Below are positions 3,970 through 23,150 of a stretch of DNA of 32,159 nucleotides, piece after piece. The position numbers were made by a program, and so were the translations under genes. The stretch is taken from positions 1 through 32,159 of the IMG/VR virus record IMGVR_UViG_3300035698_003453; one strand, written 5' to 3'. Numbering within the stretch: the stretch's first letter is position 1; every line of letters begins with the position of its first letter. This DNA is from a virus. Below the pieces are notes generated by a model, which was given only the letters and a program-made list of their open reading frames with translations, did not search any database and was not told where the DNA came from.

Positions 3970-6657
3970 CTATTCTGATTTTTTGCATGGTCGCATGTCC
4001 CACGATCCAACCAAGACACTCGTTAGCTGAAATCTGCTTGCGTATGAAGTCGCATAACAATCTTTAATCGCCTGTTCCAGTTCTGTATTACGATCCATTT
4101 CAGTCGGCTTTTGTGCCGGGTCCGCCCCCTCTCCCACATCAAAGGAAGCCCGAATATAAAGAGCCGCCTCAATCTGTGCTTTATTCGCAGCGTATTCGAC
4201 CGGATTTACAAAGTTCTCAGGTGAATTAGTATAAGGAGCAAGAATAGCCACATTGATAATCCCTTGGGTTTTGTCCGCCGTATCACAGTACACGCCATAC
4301 ATCCTGAATGATTGATTGATATCTCGTGTTTTATCATCTTCGAGTGTTTTTGTTCCAAGCGGACCCCATCCTATCGAAGCAAAGTCAGAACCGAGCGGAG
4401 TATAATCGGTTTCCAACAACCCCGCCCATGGAAAAGGATCAGCGTTTTCCAGCCCCATCCTGAATTTCAGTTTATCGTTCGCTGTTTGAGACATCTTCAT
4501 CACAGACCAACTTGTACTGTGTGAATCGCTCGGGTCAACCGAGCAGCTATATTCCGTGGTCCCAAAGATTACTACATAGTATTCTCCGCTGTGGCCGTAT
4601 CCCATCATGTCAAAGTTTTCAAACTCGATATTGCTTCGATGACCGGGAGAATCTAACCACTCCTGGAAGCAAGTGGCCACTGGATCAGGATCTGTGATAG
4701 AAACCTTGTTTAGATTTTCCCCCATCTCTTCCGTGGCGCAATCCAAGGCGGCAAGAATAGTGTCTGCTCGATCATTGAAACCAGTATGATCATAAGGCGA
4801 TACACCATTATCCATATCTTCTGCAAACTGCTGGGCGACCGAAGCTATCTCAGAGTTGGGTACTAATTCAGGATACCATGGAAATTCAGAGGCTCGGTGA
4901 GCATTGTGTAGATCATACATAGTCCCGGATTCAGACGCCACGGTGCAATCTGTGCAGTCATCAGCGCCCCATGTACAACCGTCTGAGCCCTGGTATGAGT
5001 TTGCGTGATCTACAACCATATCCACATCTACGCAGGTGCCATAAGTAAGTGATCCAGCTTGAAACCGATCTTCCGGGAATGATCCAATGTAACCACCACC
5101 GTCCGTATAATGGTATTCCTGAGTCCCGTCATGTTCCATGAATACCGGATTGACATCGTTCACAATGAAGAAATACATCATGCCTACTATATTATCTCGA
5201 ATGTTTTGATAATCAGGATTTGCACCGCACCAAAAATATATGTCTGTTCCCCATGTTCCCGGTTCTGTTGGAGTATAGAAAACCCAAGGTTGGAGCCTGT
5301 CAATATATTGCTCTGATTTCAAGTATCGTTCGCTGATCCATCCCTCGTCAAGAAACCCCGAGGTCATGTAAGTAGCTTCCACATACCGATTGTGGTACGC
5401 CTTCATTTCAGCATCATCAAGCACCGGAGGAATAAGGATACTCGTGGAAACAGCATGCATCTCATCCACTCGTTTATAGTAATTCTCGTAGCTATACCGC
5501 GTGGCGATGGTCAGCCGATCATTAGATCCATTCCTAACTGCTTCATAAACCAAATAAATGTCATACTCTGTGTCATCGGCCCAGTAAATTTCAAAGTAAC
5601 TTGATATACAATCACCGGGATAAGGATCACCAGCTTGCCCGCCAAATACTCTTTTCCGATCATAACTTAATGCCGGATCAGAGCCAAATATGCTTGATGC
5701 CGGGGAGACAGCGGTGGTTTCCAGAGATGCCGTATTACTCATCTCCCACGTCTGGGTTCCAATATCCAGCTCACTGTCAAATACATCTACCAACGCCGCC
5801 GGTTCCTCGTCAGGATATGTTCCGGAACCAGACCCGTTTGTCCATAGACTGATCCATCCATCGTCATCCCAATCCACAAAATCAGATACACTCGGTGCTC
5901 CTGGGGCATAGATATCTACCGGCTGTTCTATCGGATCACCATCGTCATCAAGCAGAACTGCATAATCATTGGTATTGATATCCCAGACAAACCAGCAATA
6001 TGAAAAAGAAAAATAAATCCAATCACCACAACTAGCTGGCTCCTTCTTGAATCCTACAACTATCGGGTTCGTCCATACATTTGTAGAGGTGAATTCAAAC
6101 TTAACAAGAACCTCGTCTCCATTCTCAAACGCACCTGAATTACAACTCATATAATCAAATGTAGCCGAAACAGAGGGCGATTGATTTACATCCAACGTCT
6201 TCCCTTCAGGTTTGTCAGTCGCTTTGCAAGTGTCAAGTGTAACAGTACAGGTATTTTCATCATGATCAATTGCCGAAACAGTACCGTACCGGTAAGGGTC
6301 CCGCCACTTCTGCCACCCTGGCCGCATAGCCAAATTCCAGAATACTCCGGTTTGGTGCATCCCAGGTTCTGTTCCTGCTTCAATCTGTGCGGGTGTTGGG
6401 ATAGGATTCACTTTAGGAACTTCAAATAGTTCTCCGTCTCGGTCAACAGCATAAACAGCATTCCCGCCGTAGCCAGGTTGGATGTTCACACCTTTATTTC
6501 TATCGCCCGCAATCTCGATCAAGCCAACCGACCCTGACAGGTCTTCGTTTCTATCTGCACACCACAGCTCCTCGTCGTGCGTAATGTCGTCATCCACATT
6601 GATCCGGACGCTATATTTTGCATCCCCGATATGGCTGATAATAGTTCCTTTGCTCAT
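3970..6657 (-). CDS. Large tail protein with an internal CAP/SCP domain
   Basis: An 895-residue, Asp/Gly/Tyr-rich protein starting in an ATGA overlap with the previous tail gene. Residues about 578-702 match the CAP (SCP/PR-1-like) superfamily: HNAHR (584-588), a His in DHTGF (H624), GEN (646-648) and WLDSPGHRSNI (667-677). These give the usual His/Glu set (H624, E647, H673; E666 may supply the other Glu). The N-terminal about 200 residues look like a beta-rich tail or baseplate module. Residues 210-575 are Trp/Tyr-rich and unassigned; a Cys cluster (561-571) lies just before the CAP domain. CAP domains are usually secreted in bacteria and eukaryotes, where roles include adhesion, lipid binding or proteolysis in some members. 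Inside a phage tail protein it may bind or act on the host envelope (inference). Confidence 0.8.
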   Translation of the reverse strand: MSKGTIISHIGDAKYSVRINVDDDITHDEELWCADRNEDLSGSVGLIEIAGDRNKGVNIQPGYGGNAVYAVDRDGELFEVPKVNPIPTPAQIEAGTEPGMHQTGVFWNLAMRPGWQKWRDPYRYGTVSAIDHDENTCTVTLDTCKATDKPEGKTLDVNQSPSVSATFDYMSCNSGAFENGDEVLVKFEFTSTNVWTNPIVVGFKKEPASCGDWIYFSFSYCWFVWDINTNDYAVLLDDDGDPIEQPVDIYAPGAPSVSDFVDWDDDGWISLWTNGSGSGTYPDEEPAALVDVFDSELDIGTQTWEMSNTASLETTAVSPASSIFGSDPALSYDRKRVFGGQAGDPYPGDCISSYFEIYWADDTEYDIYLVYEAVRNGSNDRLTIATRYSYENYYKRVDEMHAVSTSILIPPVLDDAEMKAYHNRYVEATYMTSGFLDEGWISERYLKSEQYIDRLQPWVFYTPTEPGTWGTDIYFWCGANPDYQNIRDNIVGMMYFFIVNDVNPVFMEHDGTQEYHYTDGGGYIGSFPEDRFQAGSLTYGTCVDVDMVVDHANSYQGSDGCTWGADDCTDCTVASESGTMYDLHNAHRASEFPWYPELVPNSEIASVAQQFAEDMDNGVSPYDHTGFNDRADTILAALDCATEEMGENLNKVSITDPDPVATCFQEWLDSPGHRSNIEFENFDMMGYGHSGEYYVVIFGTTEYSCSVDPSDSHSTSWSVMKMSQTANDKLKFRMGLENADPFPWAGLLETDYTPLGSDFASIGWGPLGTKTLEDDKTRDINQSFRMYGVYCDTADKTQGIINVAILAPYTNSPENFVNPVEYAANKAQIEAALYIRASFDVGEGADPAQKPTEMDRNTELEQAIKDCYATSYASRFQLTSVLVGSWDMRPCKKSE

Positions 6658-8759
6658 ATCTCGGCCTCATTTACATGCATCATTTGGATGACCTGTGTGC
6701 CTTCAATCGAAACAATATAAACAATTTGATTTACGGTAAATTCATCTCCGTCATATTTGGCTGTGTCTCCTGGGTTCAAATATAAATCACTGGCAGCGCA
6801 CCGCATATACAGCACCCCATCATTATCCATTTTGTAAACCACGTCCTGCAATTCAATAATTTTCCCAGTATAAGATTCTGTTTTATGTCCGACTAATGTG
6901 ATAGATTGGTTCTTGCCTCCTATGTCCTTCCGCATTGTCTCATAGTCAGCTTCACATATTACCTTCCGATACTGCTCTACACCATCTAATAGATAGGCCA
7001 AGCTGACTTGCATCGTACCATTCTCTCTTGCAGCTATTTCAGTCTCATAGTCAGTTCCAGGAGTAACAACAGAAAGGAAAGTAGGCGATCCAGACTTCCG
7101 TCTTGCTTGCCATGAAGATAACTGGAGGGTGAGATCTGTTTCACCATCCGCAGCACCAGTCAGAGTGAAATAATAAAGCCGCGTAATACTATTTCCGTAG
7201 ATATCAACCCATGCTTGCCAAGCTGTTCCGTCCCAGATCGAGGGAGAAGGCATACTGCTTACAAGGGAGAAGGGCATAACAGGTACTTGGAGCAGAGGAG
7301 TCATCAATAGAGAAGAGGCTAACGAGAAAGCCGGAGCAGATACACTTATTCTAAGATTTGGGACAGCCAAACTGCTGGATAATGTGAACGGTGCCGAAGT
7401 AATCAAATCAGAGATTTCAAAGACAGAGACTTGACCAAAGCTGGAAATTAATCCAAACGCTTCAACAGGCACCACATCACTGTAGGTTATTTCCAATACT
7501 GGAAAATTAGACCCATTGTCATAAGCATTAAAAAGGCTCGCTTGGTAGGCCGGAATTGTTGAGTTGTAAGATCCGAGACCAATGAGTCCTACATCATTCC
7601 CAGATGCAAAACTGCCTCTGTTTATTATCTCCTGTACAATAGTCTTAACATCGAATTCCTTCCATCCGGTAGTCTCTCCTTCCCCTAAAGCGACTGCTGC
7701 AGAAGCCGTTGTTTTCGGAAGGGCGTTAAGATCTGAGGCAAAGTTCCAGGCCGGAGCGTCGTCAACATCATGTCCGTATAGAGTTCCTCCTCCGGTCGCA
7801 GCAGAGACTATTCGGTATAGTTTCAAAGTAGCTGAATCTATCGTGGTACCTTGTGGAATATCAACTTCTTGAAATCGAAGACCTAAGTTTTTAACGGCCT
7901 GATCAAATGTATATGTGTAAGTAGTAGCACCACCTGTGTAATAATGTGTGGATGTGAATAGAGGATTCCCGCCCATCCCTACAAATGAATATGTGTCATG
8001 CCCTGAAACTGAGGCTGTGCGAACTGCTTGATACCCATCGTCTGCACCAGCCGCAACAGTCTCTTCAATCACAGCATCTACAATGATTGGGTACTTAATC
8101 TTTCTTCTAACCCATTCTTTCTGCCTGGTCTTCTTATTCTTAACTTTCGAAACGTTTCTCTTGGATATAGTTTCTTTGATGGTGTAAGTTGTCGACGAGC
8201 TTAAAACTTTCTCTTTGGATTTTTCTCGGTCGAATTGTACTTGTCGGCCTTTCTTGTCTTTTGCCACCTTCTTTGTGAAAGTTCTGAAGCTGGCAGAATT
8301 AGATTCAATACAATTCCAATGAAGAACATGAGGACCGCTCTTGGACTTAATGTGTTTGAAATATTCTACGCCAAATGGCTTGAACCTTAACTCAATATCC
8401 AGATCTTTGGCTACCTCTTTCCACACAACACGCCCAGGCTTGATAGTATTAGGAATTGTATTTATGCCTATGCTGTCCACAGAAACATTATCTATTTTAT
8501 CAAGCAGTATTGTAAACTGACCGCTGTTCTTTGATCGGTACACTCCACCAATCTTATCTTTAAATGTCATGAAATGGTAATCACACTTACTAACCACCAA
8601 TCCATTTTCAGTCTCTACCGGAGTCAAGTCAATGTCAAGTAGATGGCCAATATCGTCTGCATAATGAATCTTGGCAGAAGAAAGTACCAGCCTCTTTCTG
8701 CGGTTTCCAAGATCGAATACTTTAGAATGCAGCTTGCGTAGTGATTTTATTTCTTTCAT
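6654..8759 (-). CDS. Tail protein with DNRLRE-like domain and FxLxSS repeats
   Basis: A 701-residue protein whose ATG overlaps the sulfotransferase-like stop (TAATG). Residues 1-230 are Lys-rich and unassigned. Residues about 285-427 resemble the DNRLRE/disaggregatase-type beta-sandwich often found in surface proteins: TIDSATLKLY, WNFASDL, GWKEFDVKTIVQEIIN and FPVLEITYS. Residues about 433-520 contain short degenerate repeats of the pattern (A/P)FxLxSS (FGLISSF, FTLSSSL, FSLASSL, FSLVSSM) linked by Pro-rich spacers. The C-terminal 180 residues look like a small beta domain ending in VIQMMHVNEAEI. Location and composition support a baseplate or fibre role, perhaps carbohydrate binding. No enzyme motif is seen. 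Confidence 0.75.
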   Translation of the reverse strand: MKEIKSLRKLHSKVFDLGNRRKRLVLSSAKIHYADDIGHLLDIDLTPVETENGLVVSKCDYHFMTFKDKIGGVYRSKNSGQFTILLDKIDNVSVDSIGINTIPNTIKPGRVVWKEVAKDLDIELRFKPFGVEYFKHIKSKSGPHVLHWNCIESNSASFRTFTKKVAKDKKGRQVQFDREKSKEKVLSSSTTYTIKETISKRNVSKVKNKKTRQKEWVRRKIKYPIIVDAVIEETVAAGADDGYQAVRTASVSGHDTYSFVGMGGNPLFTSTHYYTGGATTYTYTFDQAVKNLGLRFQEVDIPQGTTIDSATLKLYRIVSAATGGGTLYGHDVDDAPAWNFASDLNALPKTTASAAVALGEGETTGWKEFDVKTIVQEIINRGSFASGNDVGLIGLGSYNSTIPAYQASLFNAYDNGSNFPVLEITYSDVVPVEAFGLISSFGQVSVFEISDLITSAPFTLSSSLAVPNLRISVSAPAFSLASSLLMTPLLQVPVMPFSLVSSMPSPSIWDGTAWQAWVDIYGNSITRLYYFTLTGAADGETDLTLQLSSWQARRKSGSPTFLSVVTPGTDYETEIAARENGTMQVSLAYLLDGVEQYRKVICEADYETMRKDIGGKNQSITLVGHKTESYTGKIIELQDVVYKMDNDGVLYMRCAASDLYLNPGDTAKYDGDEFTVNQIVYIVSIEGTQVIQMMHVNEAEI

Positions 8760-9340
8760 TATATCCCTACTGTAAGATTTTCTATCTTAAATCTGCACTG
8801 CTTTGAATCTACAATAGCTGCTGCTGAAGCTACATTGATTGGCCAACCAAAGAGCTTCATCTGATTAAATGTTTTAAGAGGGTGTGCCACAACATCTCTA
8901 TAATTGAATTGGAACAAATCAACGTCATTTCTAACCCCTAGCATCAAAATTGTTTCATCCATAATCTCATCGTAAACATTTAAGATAGGAGGAGCGTCCT
9001 TGCTGAAGAATGCTTCATAAGACTGTCTAATTTCCTCTGAGTCTCTTCGCATAAAAACAACCTTATACTTACCTGCTACCAGCCTCCACATTGCACCATG
9101 TAAGGCTTTGATCAAACAGCCCTTCCACTTCCTAGGGAAATCTCTAGCTCTGTATTGGTCTTTAGAAAGCTCGTAGAAGCCTCCACCATTCGGCTGGTAA
9201 TCTGAATCACCGAATCTCCGATTCATCTTGTTCCGTGATTTATCAAACCTAACATCCATGCCGCCTGCATTCAAGGCTTGCATCATCATACTGGTGCCAG
9301 TTCGCATAAACCCTGAAACTATGTAGACAATATCATCCAT
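8759..9340 (-). CDS. Sulfotransferase-like P-loop protein
   Basis: A 193-residue protein. The N-terminal VSGFMRTGTSMM (8-19) matches the 5'-phosphosulfate-binding loop of PAPS-dependent sulfotransferases (xxGxxRSGTS type). FMRRDSEEIRQSYEAF (about 96-111) matches their 3'-phosphate-binding region with a conserved Arg (98) and Ser (107). At 193 residues it is shorter than many family members, but loop spacing is normal. It lies in the tail operon, 3 nt after a small tail gene and overlapping the next by TAATG, so it is co-expressed with adhesin genes. It may transfer sulfate to a glycan or tyrosine on the phage particle or host surface (inference); the acceptor cannot be read from sequence. A non-catalytic P-loop role is possible. 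Confidence 0.7.
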   Translation of the reverse strand: MDDIVYIVSGFMRTGTSMMMQALNAGGMDVRFDKSRNKMNRRFGDSDYQPNGGGFYELSKDQYRARDFPRKWKGCLIKALHGAMWRLVAGKYKVVFMRRDSEEIRQSYEAFFSKDAPPILNVYDEIMDETILMLGVRNDVDLFQFNYRDVVAHPLKTFNQMKLFGWPINVASAAAIVDSKQCRFKIENLTVGI

Positions 9341-9343
9341 GTT

Positions 9344-9775
9344 TTAAGATAACCTTAACTCAATATCCTGTAGTTGAAAACTACTTCCATTTGCAGTTGT
9401 ATAGTCGGTGCCAAAATCAATGCACCCAACCACCGTATCATCTACCGTTGTAGTGTCTATTATACAAGCAGCACCAAATGGTCCTATTTCACCGCCTGAA
9501 GCGGTGAATGTCACATCATTCCAAGTCACTTCTGCTCGGTCATCCGTATCATCTTCCGAAATTGCAACACCAGCAAGGGTTTCGTCATCTTGAGTGTAGC
9601 CGTAGTTGGTAGCTAGCTGATCTGCAGTAATGAGAGCCAAAGTTGCGTCTGCATCCTTGTCAAAGGCGAAAGTGGTATTCATTAGGATAATTTTGAATGT
9701 GTCGGCTGAGAAGTCCACGAGTCCCGATGCAAGCTGGAATTTAAAGTGATTGCTAAGGACTGCTGTAATTGCCAT
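9344..9775 (-). CDS. Putative minor tail structural protein
   Basis: A 143-residue protein with AGGTG ahead of its ATG. The start MAITAVLSNHFKFQLASG, followed by DFSADTFKIILMN, is a pattern I associate with small structural proteins encoded near tape measure and baseplate genes in siphoviruses. It is acidic and Thr-rich with predicted beta structure and no enzyme motif. It lies 10 nt after the 111-residue tail protein and 3 nt before the sulfotransferase-like gene. It may be a small baseplate, collar or fibre-attachment subunit; the role is not established. Confidence 0.75.
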   Translation of the reverse strand: MAITAVLSNHFKFQLASGLVDFSADTFKIILMNTTFAFDKDADATLALITADQLATNYGYTQDDETLAGVAISEDDTDDRAEVTWNDVTFTASGGEIGPFGAACIIDTTTVDDTVVGCIDFGTDYTTANGSSFQLQDIELRLS

Positions 9776-9785
9776 GATTTCACCT

Positions 9786-10121
9786 CTATTCAGTTACAAG
9801 TAGTGTCAATTTCATGTTGCCGTCCGGAGCAACGCATTTCTGAGCCGCGCAAGAAAAGAACTCCCCATTAATAGAAACATCCCAAGGCCGGTAATTCTCA
9901 AACATATGTTGAAGAATTACCCATTGAGCTTCTGTTATTTTTGCCTGGACAGTTATCGTTCTGTCAGAATCAGTGTACCCGGAATCGTTTGTCACACTGG
10001 ATTGATCAAGAGTAGTTACCCTCGAGACCCGGCGATGTAATGTCCTGTAGTCGTCACTCACGAACCGTTTAATGATTACGTAATAGCTGCTACCCGTTTG
10101 TGTGGTCAGTACAACCATCAT
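9786..10121 (-). CDS. Small tail/baseplate protein
   Basis: A 111-residue protein directly after the tape measure gene, separated by 5 nt. GGAGA lies just before two adjacent ATG codons (10121 and 10118); spacing favours the second, giving 110 residues. It begins with beta-type sequence (VVLTTQTGSSYYVIIKRF) and contains a short helix (EAQWVILQHMF) before WDVSINGEFF. This position usually holds distal-tail or minor tail proteins, but no specific family is recognised. Function inferred from position only. Confidence 0.7.
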   Translation of the reverse strand: MMVVLTTQTGSSYYVIIKRFVSDDYRTLHRRVSRVTTLDQSSVTNDSGYTDSDRTITVQAKITEAQWVILQHMFENYRPWDVSINGEFFSCAAQKCVAPDGNMKLTLLVTE

Positions 10122-13689: not shown

Positions 13690-14703
13690 TTAAGAGTCGA
13701 AGTCCACACTGCCAGTTTCAGCACTGATCGTGCAAGATGACTGGTTCTGATTCGCCACAGGGAAAGTCCTCGCAATGCCGAGTGTCCCCTGAGTCAAAGT
13801 GTATGGTGCTTTGTTTCTGTTCGGAAAGAACTTAACGGTAATGACCTCGTTCTTTTCCCCGAGCAGAGTGTCCGTGATATTGTCAGTCATCAGGGCCGTG
13901 AAAGAAGCCTGGCCAAGACTGGACGACTTAGACCCGACAGTCCCGTTGTAATACTCTGTTGACGATACAGAATGAGCATCTTCTGCCGGTACAAAATCCA
14001 TCGTCTTTGAAACATCTGCGAAGATTGGTGTGTAATACTGAACATACACATGTTTATAGGTGGGTCCGACATGGATGGCAGAAAGCGCAGAACTGAACTT
14101 GATGTGTGACTTTTTCTCATTCGTGGAGTCTGCGTTTGATCCTTTCCCGACAGGATACTCTTCCCAGTCAGGCATGTTGAATCTTTCCACGTGGGAACCT
14201 GGAACTTGAAACAGCTGAGTAGCAACAAGAACATCAGCGGTGGATGCTGTGACCCTGATCTGCCCGATCTCTATTCCGCCAACCGGAATAAGAGGCGGTC
14301 CGCCAGCAGCACCTCTTGTGTCAGAGAATGTAGCACCGGACCCCTCTGCCCCCGGCGATACAGCGACTGCCCCGTCCGAGCCCATATAGACAGCGATCAC
14401 TTTAGATTTGCCAGGCCCTGTGCCTCGCGTGAATGTGTCCGTTGTTGCTGATACTGTGTGAAGAGTTCCTTTACTGTAAGCCGTGAAAGCCGCCACAGTC
14501 ACCGTGTCATTTGAAGCATGAACAGTAAGCAGATTGCGACCGGTTACTACACCGTCTGGTCTTACGTCAGCTTCAGCATCTTCATAATCTGACCAGATAG
14601 TCCCTCGATAAAAGATTTGATGATCACTATCCGTCATAGCCGTGAAGCTGGTCAGGGTTCGTCCTGTCTCAATTTGAATTTTTGCTTTTGCGCTTGTTGA
14701 CAT
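13690..14703 (-). CDS. Putative major tail (tube) protein
   Basis: A 337-residue beta-rich protein with AAGGAGA before the ATG, lying between the glycosyltransferase gene and tail chaperone G. The Ser/Thr/Gly-rich composition, no signal peptide and position directly upstream of the chaperones are typical for siphovirus tail tube proteins; many are 150-350 residues. Its middle (GGIEIGQIRVTAST) and C-terminal part (GTLGIARTFPVANQNQSSC) look like stacked beta segments. Family membership is inferred mainly from synteny. Its start lies inside the end of the glycosyltransferase gene (35 nt overlap), so translation is likely coupled. Confidence 0.75.
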   Translation of the reverse strand: MSTSAKAKIQIETGRTLTSFTAMTDSDHQIFYRGTIWSDYEDAEADVRPDGVVTGRNLLTVHASNDTVTVAAFTAYSKGTLHTVSATTDTFTRGTGPGKSKVIAVYMGSDGAVAVSPGAEGSGATFSDTRGAAGGPPLIPVGGIEIGQIRVTASTADVLVATQLFQVPGSHVERFNMPDWEEYPVGKGSNADSTNEKKSHIKFSSALSAIHVGPTYKHVYVQYYTPIFADVSKTMDFVPAEDAHSVSSTEYYNGTVGSKSSSLGQASFTALMTDNITDTLLGEKNEVITVKFFPNRNKAPYTLTQGTLGIARTFPVANQNQSSCTISAETGSVDFDS

Positions 14704-16807
14704 GATTCTTCTCCTTCTTGATTTGGGTTAGTCCGACAACACCGAGATTCTTTTTCAATTCAACCTCGATGCCGGATCTTGTTTTGGAATCCGAAATATC
14801 CTTGAGACTCTCCCGAAGTCTTGAAAGATGGATGGAACCTGATTGCAAATAACACATAGTGGCGTGGTGCAGAACATAAGACAGCGACTCCGGTCTGTTG
14901 CCGTAAACAAATCGGATACCTGACGCTGATGGATTGGACTTTAAATAATTATAAGCTACCTCGTATTTCTGCGCGCCCTCTAAAACCAAGTCACCGCGAT
15001 TGATCATTGTCCCGTACTCAATCATAGCCAGGCATAGATCCAGATCATTCGGGATAACTGCAAAACCCTCATTTAGCAATTCCCATGCCCTTGCTAGATT
15101 ATTCTGAGACAAGTAGGCCGTGATCAGCGAATAATAAACTGACGGGTTGAAATCATGTGCCTTTAACCTGGTTGTTATGTACCTTTCCCCGTACTCGATG
15201 CCCTTTTCTATTTCCCCAATATCGCAGTAAGATTGAAACAGATAGAAAAGAGCTTTATGGTCGTTAATATCCTGCTCAAGCCTTTTCTTCAAAAGAGCAA
15301 TCGTTCGAATAGATTTCTTTCTCTTAAGGACAGGATCTCCGTGATACCCATAATGTTTCAGGGACGCATCCTGGTAGAAACCAATCTCGCCGTCAACCAT
15401 CGGTTCATTATGAACAATGTTTTTGTATGTGACTTTACCATTCCTGAATATCCTGAGTGGGGTGAACATTACAGACTGCACTCCGTCATCCATCATATCC
15501 CGTAAAGGAAGCTGTATCCCGCATACGGATTCGGGGATGTTAGCAAGTGCCCGTTTCATCTTTCGCCCATCACCTATAAACTTCTCATCTGCGTCTATCT
15601 GGAGTACCCACGGATTTGTGGCATAATCTAAAGATTGGTTCCTGTGAAAACTAAAGTCATCCTGCCAAGGGTGATGGTATATCTTGGCCTTGTAGGGTTT
15701 GCACAGATTGACAGTGTTGTCCACGCTGCCGGTGTCCACGATAATGATTTCATCAGCGAAACCTACAACGGAGTTCAGGCACCGTTCGATGTTCTTTTCC
15801 TCGTCACGAACTATCATGGCAACCGTCAGCTTCACTGGAAATGATTTCGTGCTTAACTGATGTGCTGTGATCTGTGTAGGTTTGCAATCATCCAATATCT
15901 CCGCGATGGCCTTTATGGTTTCCTTGAGATTGAAATTATCGTTGACGAATGATCTGTAGTTCAAGGGAGCTAGTTTGCCATTTGCCTGAGCTACCAGATT
16001 CTCAATCGAGTACCACAAAAACTTGGATGGATACACATACTCTGAACCATAGAAAGAATGGATAAGCGGTTTGCACCCTGTAGCCATCGCTTCAAGGATG
16101 CCCATGCCTTGAGATTCGAGAAGGCTGGAAGATATGATGTAAGATTTGTCTCTAAGCCACTCCTGGATATTATCTTGCCATCCATCGAAACGGACCCGGC
16201 CCTCAAGCCCAAACTCTTTAATCATCTGATCAAAGTATAGCCGGTATCTTGGTTCCTGGAACTTCCCGGCGATATGGAGGTCGAAACCATGATCTGCCAG
16301 TTCTTTGAATCCATGAAGCAGCAGCATCGGCCCTTTTTTGTGGTTGATATAACCGACATAGGCGATGTTTTTATTCGGATCTCTGGGGATGAAATTATGC
16401 TTTTCGAGGTCCACCCCGTTTGGAATAATATGGATGTTGTCTTTCAGGATCAGCTTGATTTTGGGTACGGCGTCCAAGACTAAATCCCGAATATGCGGCG
16501 CCACGAATATCAGGTGATCAACCCGGTCCCAATTTATGTATTGAATATATGGTGCGAATGCCTCGTAACTGTGTATCCTGAGTATGACTTTTTTCCCATT
16601 GAGGATAGCCATATCGGTTGTCAATCTCTGCGCCAGGTCGTCAGCCCATTCGATCCATACTGTATCGGCGTCTTCTATGGCATGGACGATGCCGTTGTCA
16701 TCATGAGTCACAACATCCCGGCAATCATACCCAAAATTCCTCAAGGCCTCGGATACCGGCAGCATAAAATTTTCTAATCCAGGTTTGGCTATAAACGCTA
16801 TTTTCAT
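14669..16807 (-). CDS. Two-domain glycosyltransferase (GT4 + GT2) with TPR-like tail
   Basis: A 712-residue protein. The ATG at 16807 has AAGGA upstream and gives MKIAFIAKPG, a natural Rossmann start. Residues 1-310 form a GT-B (GT4-like) domain: IIPNGVDLEKHNF, AYVGYINHKKGP, and ESQGMGILEAMATG with the donor-binding ExxxxxxxE (E231/E239). Residues about 325-500 form a GT-A, GT2/SunS-like domain: MIVRDEEKNIERCL, IVDTGSVDNT and the DAD metal motif (D405-D407). Residues about 510-610 are helical TPR-like repeats (ALFYLFQSYCDIGEIEKGIEYG), as in many GT2-TPR fusions. It lies in the tail module between tail terminator and putative major tail protein genes. It probably glycosylates a virion or host surface component (inference). 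Neither donor nor acceptor is known. Confidence 0.88.
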   Translation of the reverse strand: MKIAFIAKPGLENFMLPVSEALRNFGYDCRDVVTHDDNGIVHAIEDADTVWIEWADDLAQRLTTDMAILNGKKVILRIHSYEAFAPYIQYINWDRVDHLIFVAPHIRDLVLDAVPKIKLILKDNIHIIPNGVDLEKHNFIPRDPNKNIAYVGYINHKKGPMLLLHGFKELADHGFDLHIAGKFQEPRYRLYFDQMIKEFGLEGRVRFDGWQDNIQEWLRDKSYIISSSLLESQGMGILEAMATGCKPLIHSFYGSEYVYPSKFLWYSIENLVAQANGKLAPLNYRSFVNDNFNLKETIKAIAEILDDCKPTQITAHQLSTKSFPVKLTVAMIVRDEEKNIERCLNSVVGFADEIIIVDTGSVDNTVNLCKPYKAKIYHHPWQDDFSFHRNQSLDYATNPWVLQIDADEKFIGDGRKMKRALANIPESVCGIQLPLRDMMDDGVQSVMFTPLRIFRNGKVTYKNIVHNEPMVDGEIGFYQDASLKHYGYHGDPVLKRKKSIRTIALLKKRLEQDINDHKALFYLFQSYCDIGEIEKGIEYGERYITTRLKAHDFNPSVYYSLITAYLSQNNLARAWELLNEGFAVIPNDLDLCLAMIEYGTMINRGDLVLEGAQKYEVAYNYLKSNPSASGIRFVYGNRPESLSYVLHHATMCYLQSGSIHLSRLRESLKDISDSKTRSGIEVELKKNLGVVGLTQIKKEKNHVNKRKSKNSN

Positions 16808-16826
16808 GGTTTCCTTTTCTCCCGTT

Positions 16827-17318
16827 CTAAGGTCCATAAGCTGTCATATTAAATGGTTCCGTTCTGTACTTGATCGTGAATTTCACCAAGGCACCGCACC
16901 AAGGGTCCTGCCCCTGCCCAATCTCATAGGCCGCTGAATCAAAAATCAGATCAGACACCGTTTCTGTCAACTCATAATCAGGGTCATCAGATACCTTTGG
17001 TGCTGTGTCTTTTCTTATTAATGATGTCACCACATCAGCGATAAGTTTATTCGCAATATCGATGAATGGATCATCCCTGGTCAAATCGTGTATTTCAATG
17101 TAAAGATCCAAGGTCCGGTTATCGTCGTCATATACAGTTCTCTCGTTTCCGATCTGCGTTGCCCAATAATTGACACTTGGCAGGTCGTACCCAGTGAACG
17201 GTTTCAATCTCGCTCGCTCAATCTTCTTAACGGTCACATTGTAACCGTTGGCTGTCGTGATGTTCGCCAGCCTGGTTCCTATTTCGGTCAATATGGTTGT
17301 CGCTGCAGGGGTCGTCAT
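16827..17318 (-). CDS. Putative tail terminator/completion protein
   Basis: A 163-residue protein following the gp10-like gene, with GGAGAGGATT just before its ATG. The start (ILTEIGTRLANI), the beta segment LDLYIEIHDLT and the C-terminal ALVKFTIKYRTEPF suit the small alpha/beta tail terminator or neck proteins that cap the tail in siphoviruses. Synteny (connector, gp10-like, this gene, then major tail protein) supports this. No enzyme motif is visible. It ends 19 nt before the glycosyltransferase ATG. Confidence 0.72.
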   Translation of the reverse strand: MTTPAATTILTEIGTRLANITTANGYNVTVKKIERARLKPFTGYDLPSVNYWATQIGNERTVYDDDNRTLDLYIEIHDLTRDDPFIDIANKLIADVVTSLIRKDTAPKVSDDPDYELTETVSDLIFDSAAYEIGQGQDPWCGALVKFTIKYRTEPFNMTAYGP

Positions 17319-22492: not shown

Positions 22493-23047
22493 TTATATGG
22501 CCGTTTTTGCTTTTTTTATCATCCCTCGATGTAGCTTCATGTGGCAGCTATGACATAATGTAGCGATGTCATGCGGGGCACATTTCTTTTTTCCATTTTT
22601 ATGGTGTGCAGACAATATTACCCCGAATAACTTCAAACACATCATTTGAGTTATCCCGCAAAATTCACAAGCGCCCTTTTTAATATCACGTATATATTCT
22701 CTATCTCCCCAAATGTGGCAATATCCATCTTTGCTTACCTCACCATTTTTTTGAGCGGCCTCTAGTCGTAAAAGTGATAGCTTATATTTAGTTTCTTCAG
22801 AATATTTTTTGCCTGTCTGTGACTTAGATATGTTCGCTTTATGTTCTTCTGACAGATGTTTTCCTGCGTGCGCTTTAGATAATTTTAATTTAGTTTCTTC
22901 AGAACATGGAACACCACGCCCATTATGTCCTGATACAAACAACCTGGCAACGCCCTTATAAATTGTGACCCTCTCTCCACACCCGCAGGCACATAAAGGT
23001 ATCCCTTGACCTTCTTCATCAGATAATGGTATTGATTTTTTGTCCAT
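22493..23047 (-). CDS. NUMOD3-HNH homing endonuclease
   Basis: A 184-residue protein. The ATG at 23047 follows GGAGAT; the open frame continues 5' only through the leader and promoter. Residues 15-45 have a Cys-rich finger (CACGCGERV plus H41). Residues 48-95 contain tandem NUMOD3 modules ([41 protein letters not shown]) that bind DNA. Residues 125-175 form an HNH nuclease with CEFC, SAHHKNG and [10 protein letters not shown]. It sits between the Gly/Lys-rich mini-gene and prohead protease with its own promoter, hairpin leader and terminator: a self-contained selfish gene inside the head operon. Its target is probably a nearby head gene in related phages (inference). Confidence 0.92.
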
Positions 23048-23082
23048 GGCTTCATATCTCCAATATATGAGGTTGTCGATTA

Positions 23083-23116
23083 GAAACGGTGGGAGGCTCA
23101 ATCCTCGCGCCGTTTC
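23083..23116 (-). promoter_or_regulatory. 5' leader hairpin of the NUMOD3-HNH gene
   Basis: On the minus strand GAAACGG and CCGTTTC pair, with an inner GAGG/CCTC helix and a 6-nt loop, 34 nt in all. The outer arms, total length and 35-nt distance to the ATG equal those of the hairpin before the HNH-AP2 gene (1188-1221), while inner bases differ in a way that mostly preserves pairing. The predicted transcription start is at the hairpin's 5' foot. Confidence 0.7.
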
Positions 23117-23121
23117 GTTAT

Positions 23122-23150
23122 TATATAGCATAGTTGCGACCATTTATCAA
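23122..23150 (-). promoter_or_regulatory. Sigma70-type promoter of the NUMOD3-HNH gene
   Basis: TTGATA (23150-23145) and TATATA (23127-23122) have a 17-bp spacer on the minus strand; TATAAT two bases further is an alternative -10. The run AAAGGCTTGA containing the -35 box is also present at the other homing endonuclease promoter (1226-1254). Confidence 0.62.

Follow-up and report, generated by a model that had tools for sequence, protein, structure and literature searches.

A candidate sulfation cassette in uncultivated phages, linking a sulfotransferase gene to a tail-protein gene and, in some relatives, to APS kinase

PAPS, the product of APS kinase, is the sulfate donor. Three features are essential to sulfotransferases, namely a first motif with a basic residue, a second with a serine, and a histidine or glutamate base between the two (PMC6637879). 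The gene for the bacterial tyrosylprotein sulfotransferase RaxST lies in the same cluster as that of its substrate, the peptide RaxX, with PAPS supplied by separate genes (PMC6637879). In viruses, the APS kinase gene cysC has been read as part of assimilatory sulfate reduction (PMC9529941, PMC10914622), and the role of sulfotransferases in phage genomes has been called unclear (PMC10580990). The open-access literature searched here treats phage sulfotransferases as auxiliary genes but describes no pair of a sulfotransferase and a tail protein. Here, a small sulfotransferase (ST) gene and the gene of a partner protein are reported to travel together in unrelated viruses, sometimes with an APS kinase gene, which suggests, as far as gene content can indicate, that the viruses may add sulfate to some component of their tail.

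The stretch of DNA analysed (the window) is an IMG/VR virus record of 32,159 bases with a structural operon of siphophage type on the minus strand. The ST gene is flanked by the gene of a small tail-operon protein (9344-9775, PHROG 644) and by a gene encoding the 701-aa partner (6654-8759). Elsewhere, a protein encoded in the tail operon of the window (3970-6657, minus strand) contains a CAP domain of SCP/YkwD-like type (PF00188, E 2e-6), and two HNH-like ORFs in the structural region (406-1473 and 22493-23143, minus strand) are, by their sequence, likely homing endonucleases. The first of these has a seemingly AP2-like C-terminus, and homologues of the region are found in contigs L038 and L059. 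The features of the ST gene are:

8759..9340, minus strand: ST gene (P0001), 193 aa, ATG start and TAA stop
9290..9313, minus strand: GFMRTGTS, 5'-phosphosulfate-binding loop, residues 10-17, with R13 invariant (sequence, alignment, profile)
9170..9172, minus strand: E57, invariant glutamate in the segment that separates the PAPS motifs, a candidate for the catalytic base
9107..9109, minus strand: K78, invariant lysine, aligned with the lysine of the SULT 'LIKTHLP' segment (alignment, profile)
9020..9049, minus strand: RRDSEEIRQS, 3'-phosphate-binding motif, residues 98-107, with R99 and S107 invariant (alignment with the SULT arginine/serine pair)
8757..8761, minus strand: TAATG, ST stop overlapping the partner start, with base 8759 common to both genes (sequence)

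Relatives of ST were gathered in viral contigs with the degenerate pattern GFxR[ST]GTSMMM and then by profile scan, giving 59 distinct viral contigs, and on the cellular side 571 confirmed genome stretches encode relatives, the best 80 of the 571 being kept. The ORF at 8759-9340 is therefore not a chance reading frame. Both viral scans demand GTSMMM, so that variants such as that of L210 (GTSMAM) are under-sampled. Some cellular relatives (L121, L125, L136 and L193) are C-terminal domains of proteins of ~860-1050 aa that combine a type I phosphodiesterase, TPR repeats and the sulfotransferase.

Across 31 phage and cellular members, R13, G15, T16, S17, N51, E57, K78, R99 and S107 are invariant. 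The second position of the R13-T-G-T-S loop is S, T or C, and its counterpart in the alignment with SULT1C3 is the PKSGT loop, while R99 and S107 provide the arginine and serine, eight residues apart, of a 3'-phosphate site. Of the three sulfotransferase essentials, R13 and S107 provide the first two, and the invariant E57 is a candidate for the base. A PDB search with the single window sequence returned unrelated proteins only, such as an NADH dehydrogenase subunit, and a profile of the 31 members was used instead, with which sulfotransferases alone among the listed hits scored below E 1 (best E 7e-7), their alignment matching R99 and S107 to the residue pair that binds the 3'-phosphate in solved enzymes, and R13 to their phosphosulfate loop. 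The AlphaFold model of ST (pLDDT 89.8) has sulfotransferases as all of its best fold matches, headed by the human tyrosylprotein sulfotransferases (rmsd 3.2 over 168 residues), with other sulfotransferases behind. The initial annotation had called the gene sulfotransferase-like from its two PAPS signatures and had proposed structure prediction and the fate of PAPS-binding residues in homologues as checks; profile, fold and invariant residues bear out this identification, and the key residues of both signatures are kept across the 31 members.

The product of 8759-9340 as a PAPS-dependent sulfotransferase is thus well supported by sequence and predicted structure, and the enzyme is very probably catalytically competent, given the invariant PAPS-binding and candidate catalytic residues, the profile matches and the fold. 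The window ST scores 17.3 bits against Pfam PF13469 (Sulfotransfer_3), below the gathering cut-off of 27, and is therefore filed in the PAPS-dependent superfamily rather than under that model; of 22 relatives, 12 have a match to it at E<0.01, the best at 5e-10. The PHROG and NCBIfam libraries gave no model for the window ST. A tblastn search with four family members (the window ST and those of L063, L041 and L101) gave no match in 50,697 isolate phage records, which therefore supply no annotated family member whose host is named.

The partner gene is a chimera, with the following features:

6654..8759, minus strand: partner gene encoding 701 aa, with an ST-linked module at the N-terminus fused to a hub domain at the C-terminus (blastp, model folds)
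7470..8759, minus strand: ST-linked module, partner residues 1-430 (blastp coordinates, profile)
7485..7880, minus strand: DNRLRE/CBM96-like domain, partner residues 294-425 (library scores, fold)
6657..7193, minus strand: baseplate/tail-tip hub domain (gp27/VgrG-like), partner residues 523-701 (fold)

The DNRLRE/CBM96-like domain falls below both library cut-offs (NCBIfam DNRLRE 6e-7, 29.7 bits against 34; CBM96 6e-4, 20.1 bits against 26), and its predicted fold resembles the chondroitin-sulfate-binding CBM 8wab (Z 12.2). Residues 523-701 have the hub fold, best matching 9b45 (Z 16.6, rmsd 2.5, 164 residues) and reaching Z 10-17 among the Pa193 and E217 baseplates, Mu gp44, the T5 tail tip and VgrG. 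Since the C-terminal fusion domain folds as a tail hub, the ST-linked module would then sit on the tail tip in the window phage. Residues 1-430 match ST-linked genes and residues ~420-700 match the hub gene of sister phages, which occupies the same operon slot without the module; none of these phages gives an ST hit. An intermediate is found in L027, where the DNRLRE and hub regions are present but no ST adjoins them. As the sister phages possess the hub domain but neither ST nor its module, the simplest history looks like the insertion of a cassette of ST and module and its fusion to the hub gene.

The overlap between ST and what the initial annotation had described as a tail adhesin gene is a meaningful, conserved signal. 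A homologue of the N-terminal module lies beside ST in 19 of the 20 closest contigs (ST score >195 bits), in 3 of the 17 next-closest and in none of the 22 most distant (22 of 59 in total), and the 37 contigs that lack it nearly all carry more distant ST relatives. The two genes usually overlap by a few bases, and the remaining genes of these phages are for the most part dissimilar to those of the window; in one of the 22 (L040/L073) the order of the two is reversed. Phylogenetically, the window ST falls within a phage clade of 27 members (support 97/91), 21 of them with the partner. In the reverse test, two pattern searches for the partner, the second of which did not cover TCN serine codons, gave 11 loci with ST adjoining in 5, and recovered the ST of L210 that the ST scans had missed. 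Partner-family proteins without an adjoining ST are those of L209 and L211-L215. The ST ORFs of L056 (9323-9997) and L078 (1535-2209) continue at their C-terminus into a partner-like YPVDIDPTV...DADDGFETNGTTW, perhaps by ST-partner fusion or by frameshift.

The recurring neighbour enzyme of ST is APS kinase (PF01583), present in 7 of 49 ST records. All seven kinases adjoin ST or the partner or lie within ~350 bases of ST (L097), placements whose joint chance at random in those records is roughly estimated at ~2e-8. In all 31 control records, including the window, APS kinase was below the cut-off or absent, and the window itself has none above it. Conversely, among 80 viral APS kinase loci the window-type ST family occurs in 2 and other ST-like ORFs in 5, and most viral APS kinases are therefore not explained by the ST cassette. 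In 4 of the 7, a small HxGH nucleotidyltransferase (CTP_transf_like) is fused to or beside the kinase, just upstream of ST (L041 3033-3851, L069 508-1234, L071 9367-10005 and L097 7845-8577), and is possibly a stand-in for ATP sulfurylase.

Together these genes would form a cassette of the tail operon, with a small PAPS-dependent ST translated together with the tail protein on which it acts. At a late stage of infection, and either before tail assembly or in its course, sulfate from host PAPS, to which some relatives may add through an APS kinase of their own, would be transferred by ST to a hydroxyl group in the N-terminal module of the partner, on the tail-tip hub in the case of the window phage, possibly altering the charge and binding of the surface that contacts the host. 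The linkage of the two genes makes it about an even call that the partner is the acceptor of ST. Sulfation of the tail-tip partner late in infection, for which we infer acceptor, residue type, timing and benefit alike, has perhaps one chance in two of being right. Counting against it are the ST and partner genes that occur apart, the lack of an APS kinase in the window, the low yield of the reverse search from viral APS kinases and the failure to find an ST-specific acceptor residue. The broader reading, of a mobile sulfation cassette (ST, a dedicated adhesin module and in some cases APS kinase) that sulfates the tail tip of the phage carrying it, with part of viral cysC serving virion sulfation, is tentative and somewhat less probable than not.

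Several residues of the partner were considered as acceptors. A search for a residue confined to partners linked to ST turned up no convincing candidate, and tyrosines in an acidic context show no enrichment in these proteins. Y61 was rejected because it is also kept in partners without ST. T306 is T or S in 18 of 18 ST-linked sequences versus 1 of 6 others, a difference that was discounted because many columns were scanned against six distant sequences.

The main rival to sulfation of the partner has ST acting on a polysaccharide or lipid of the host surface, a change of the receptor that would serve to keep out superinfecting phages or to convert a lysogen; the adhesin would lie nearby as receptor-related genes cluster. 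Many known bacterial sulfotransferases have glycans or Nod factors as acceptors, distant ST members adjoin other tail genes, and the partner domain is similar to lyase domains and to a module that binds chondroitin sulfate, all of which agree with a glycan target. However, neither so close a coupling to a single virion protein in phages that are otherwise unrelated nor the joint insertion of ST and module would be expected of such an enzyme, and incidental inspection of the 32 kb showed no integrase. Such a target on the host surface is therefore considered unlikely, at about one chance in five. Sulfation of a small molecule, or a contribution to host sulfur metabolism, would make ST an auxiliary metabolic gene, the category in which viromes list phage sulfotransferases and cysC (PMC8290583, PMC9529941, PMC10914622), but the linkage of ST to a structural protein is fixed, and this role is improbable.

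The initial annotation had proposed a 'glycosylate then sulfate' pair, in which the glycosyltransferase (GT) of the tail module modifies a tail component and ST then sulfates that sugar:

14669-16837, minus strand: window GT, 722 aa, GT4-like and GT2 domains with a TPR-like tail (domain library matches)

The GT2 part is closest to SunS-type S-glycosyltransferases (96.8 bits against a cut-off of 350). The two genes share one operon, and GT2 domains are somewhat commoner in ST records than in controls (10 of 32 versus 3 of 30, from sets of unequal record length), but they adjoin ST in only 3-4 records. Only in two sister contigs, L002 and L003, which each stop short of the ST slot, were homologues of the window GT found, and the ST-bearing loci searched contained none except a weak 160-aa match in L104. 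Co-occurrence of the two enzymes across phage tail modules, a check proposed in the initial annotation, found no conserved support in these loci, and GT-ST pairing was rejected as the conserved link. Glycosyltransferases do lie near ST in L070, and sequential modification of this kind is considered very improbable. The region of L070 upstream of its ST-partner pair (5018-9790) holds a cluster of ORFs that resemble glycosyltransferases and methyltransferases, together with two more ST-like P-loop ORFs (GAPHSATSF). Least probable of all is a non-catalytic role of the ST fold, as an assembly factor or a chaperone of the tail protein whose gene overlaps, which would account for the one-to-one coupling with the partner but not for the invariance of all PAPS-binding and candidate catalytic residues or for the APS kinases beside ST.

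Sulfation of the tail-tip partner by ST can be compared with several described systems. The tyrosylprotein sulfotransferases (human TPST1/2 and bacterial RaxST, with its peptide RaxX) are the best fold matches of ST (Z 12.6) and share with it the arginine and serine of the two PAPS motifs and a glutamate between them. For tyrosine specificity the likeness is in fold only, and ST has ~15% identity to these enzymes, is phage-borne, has a tail protein as candidate substrate and is paired with a partner in which no acidic tyrosine site was found. RaxST/RaxX is the nearest cellular parallel to the ST-partner pair, which offers a concrete enzyme together with a candidate substrate. The cytosolic SULT1 family gives the highest sequence-profile scores, with R99/S107 and K78 of the window ST in alignment, whereas ST is shorter and without a histidine at the catalytic-base position (IKAL versus IKTH). 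Among viral proteins, a sulfotransferase family protein of an uncultured Caudovirales (BFVD A0A6J7WIG0) has the same fold throughout (TM-score 0.78/0.82) at 24% identity. If the partner is indeed the acceptor, phages might adjust their receptor binding through a post-translational modification at the tail tip. The resemblance to the viral cysC auxiliary genes lies in the APS kinase carried by some ST cassettes, where supply of PAPS fits better than assimilatory sulfate reduction and may provide an alternative reading for some viral APS kinase genes.
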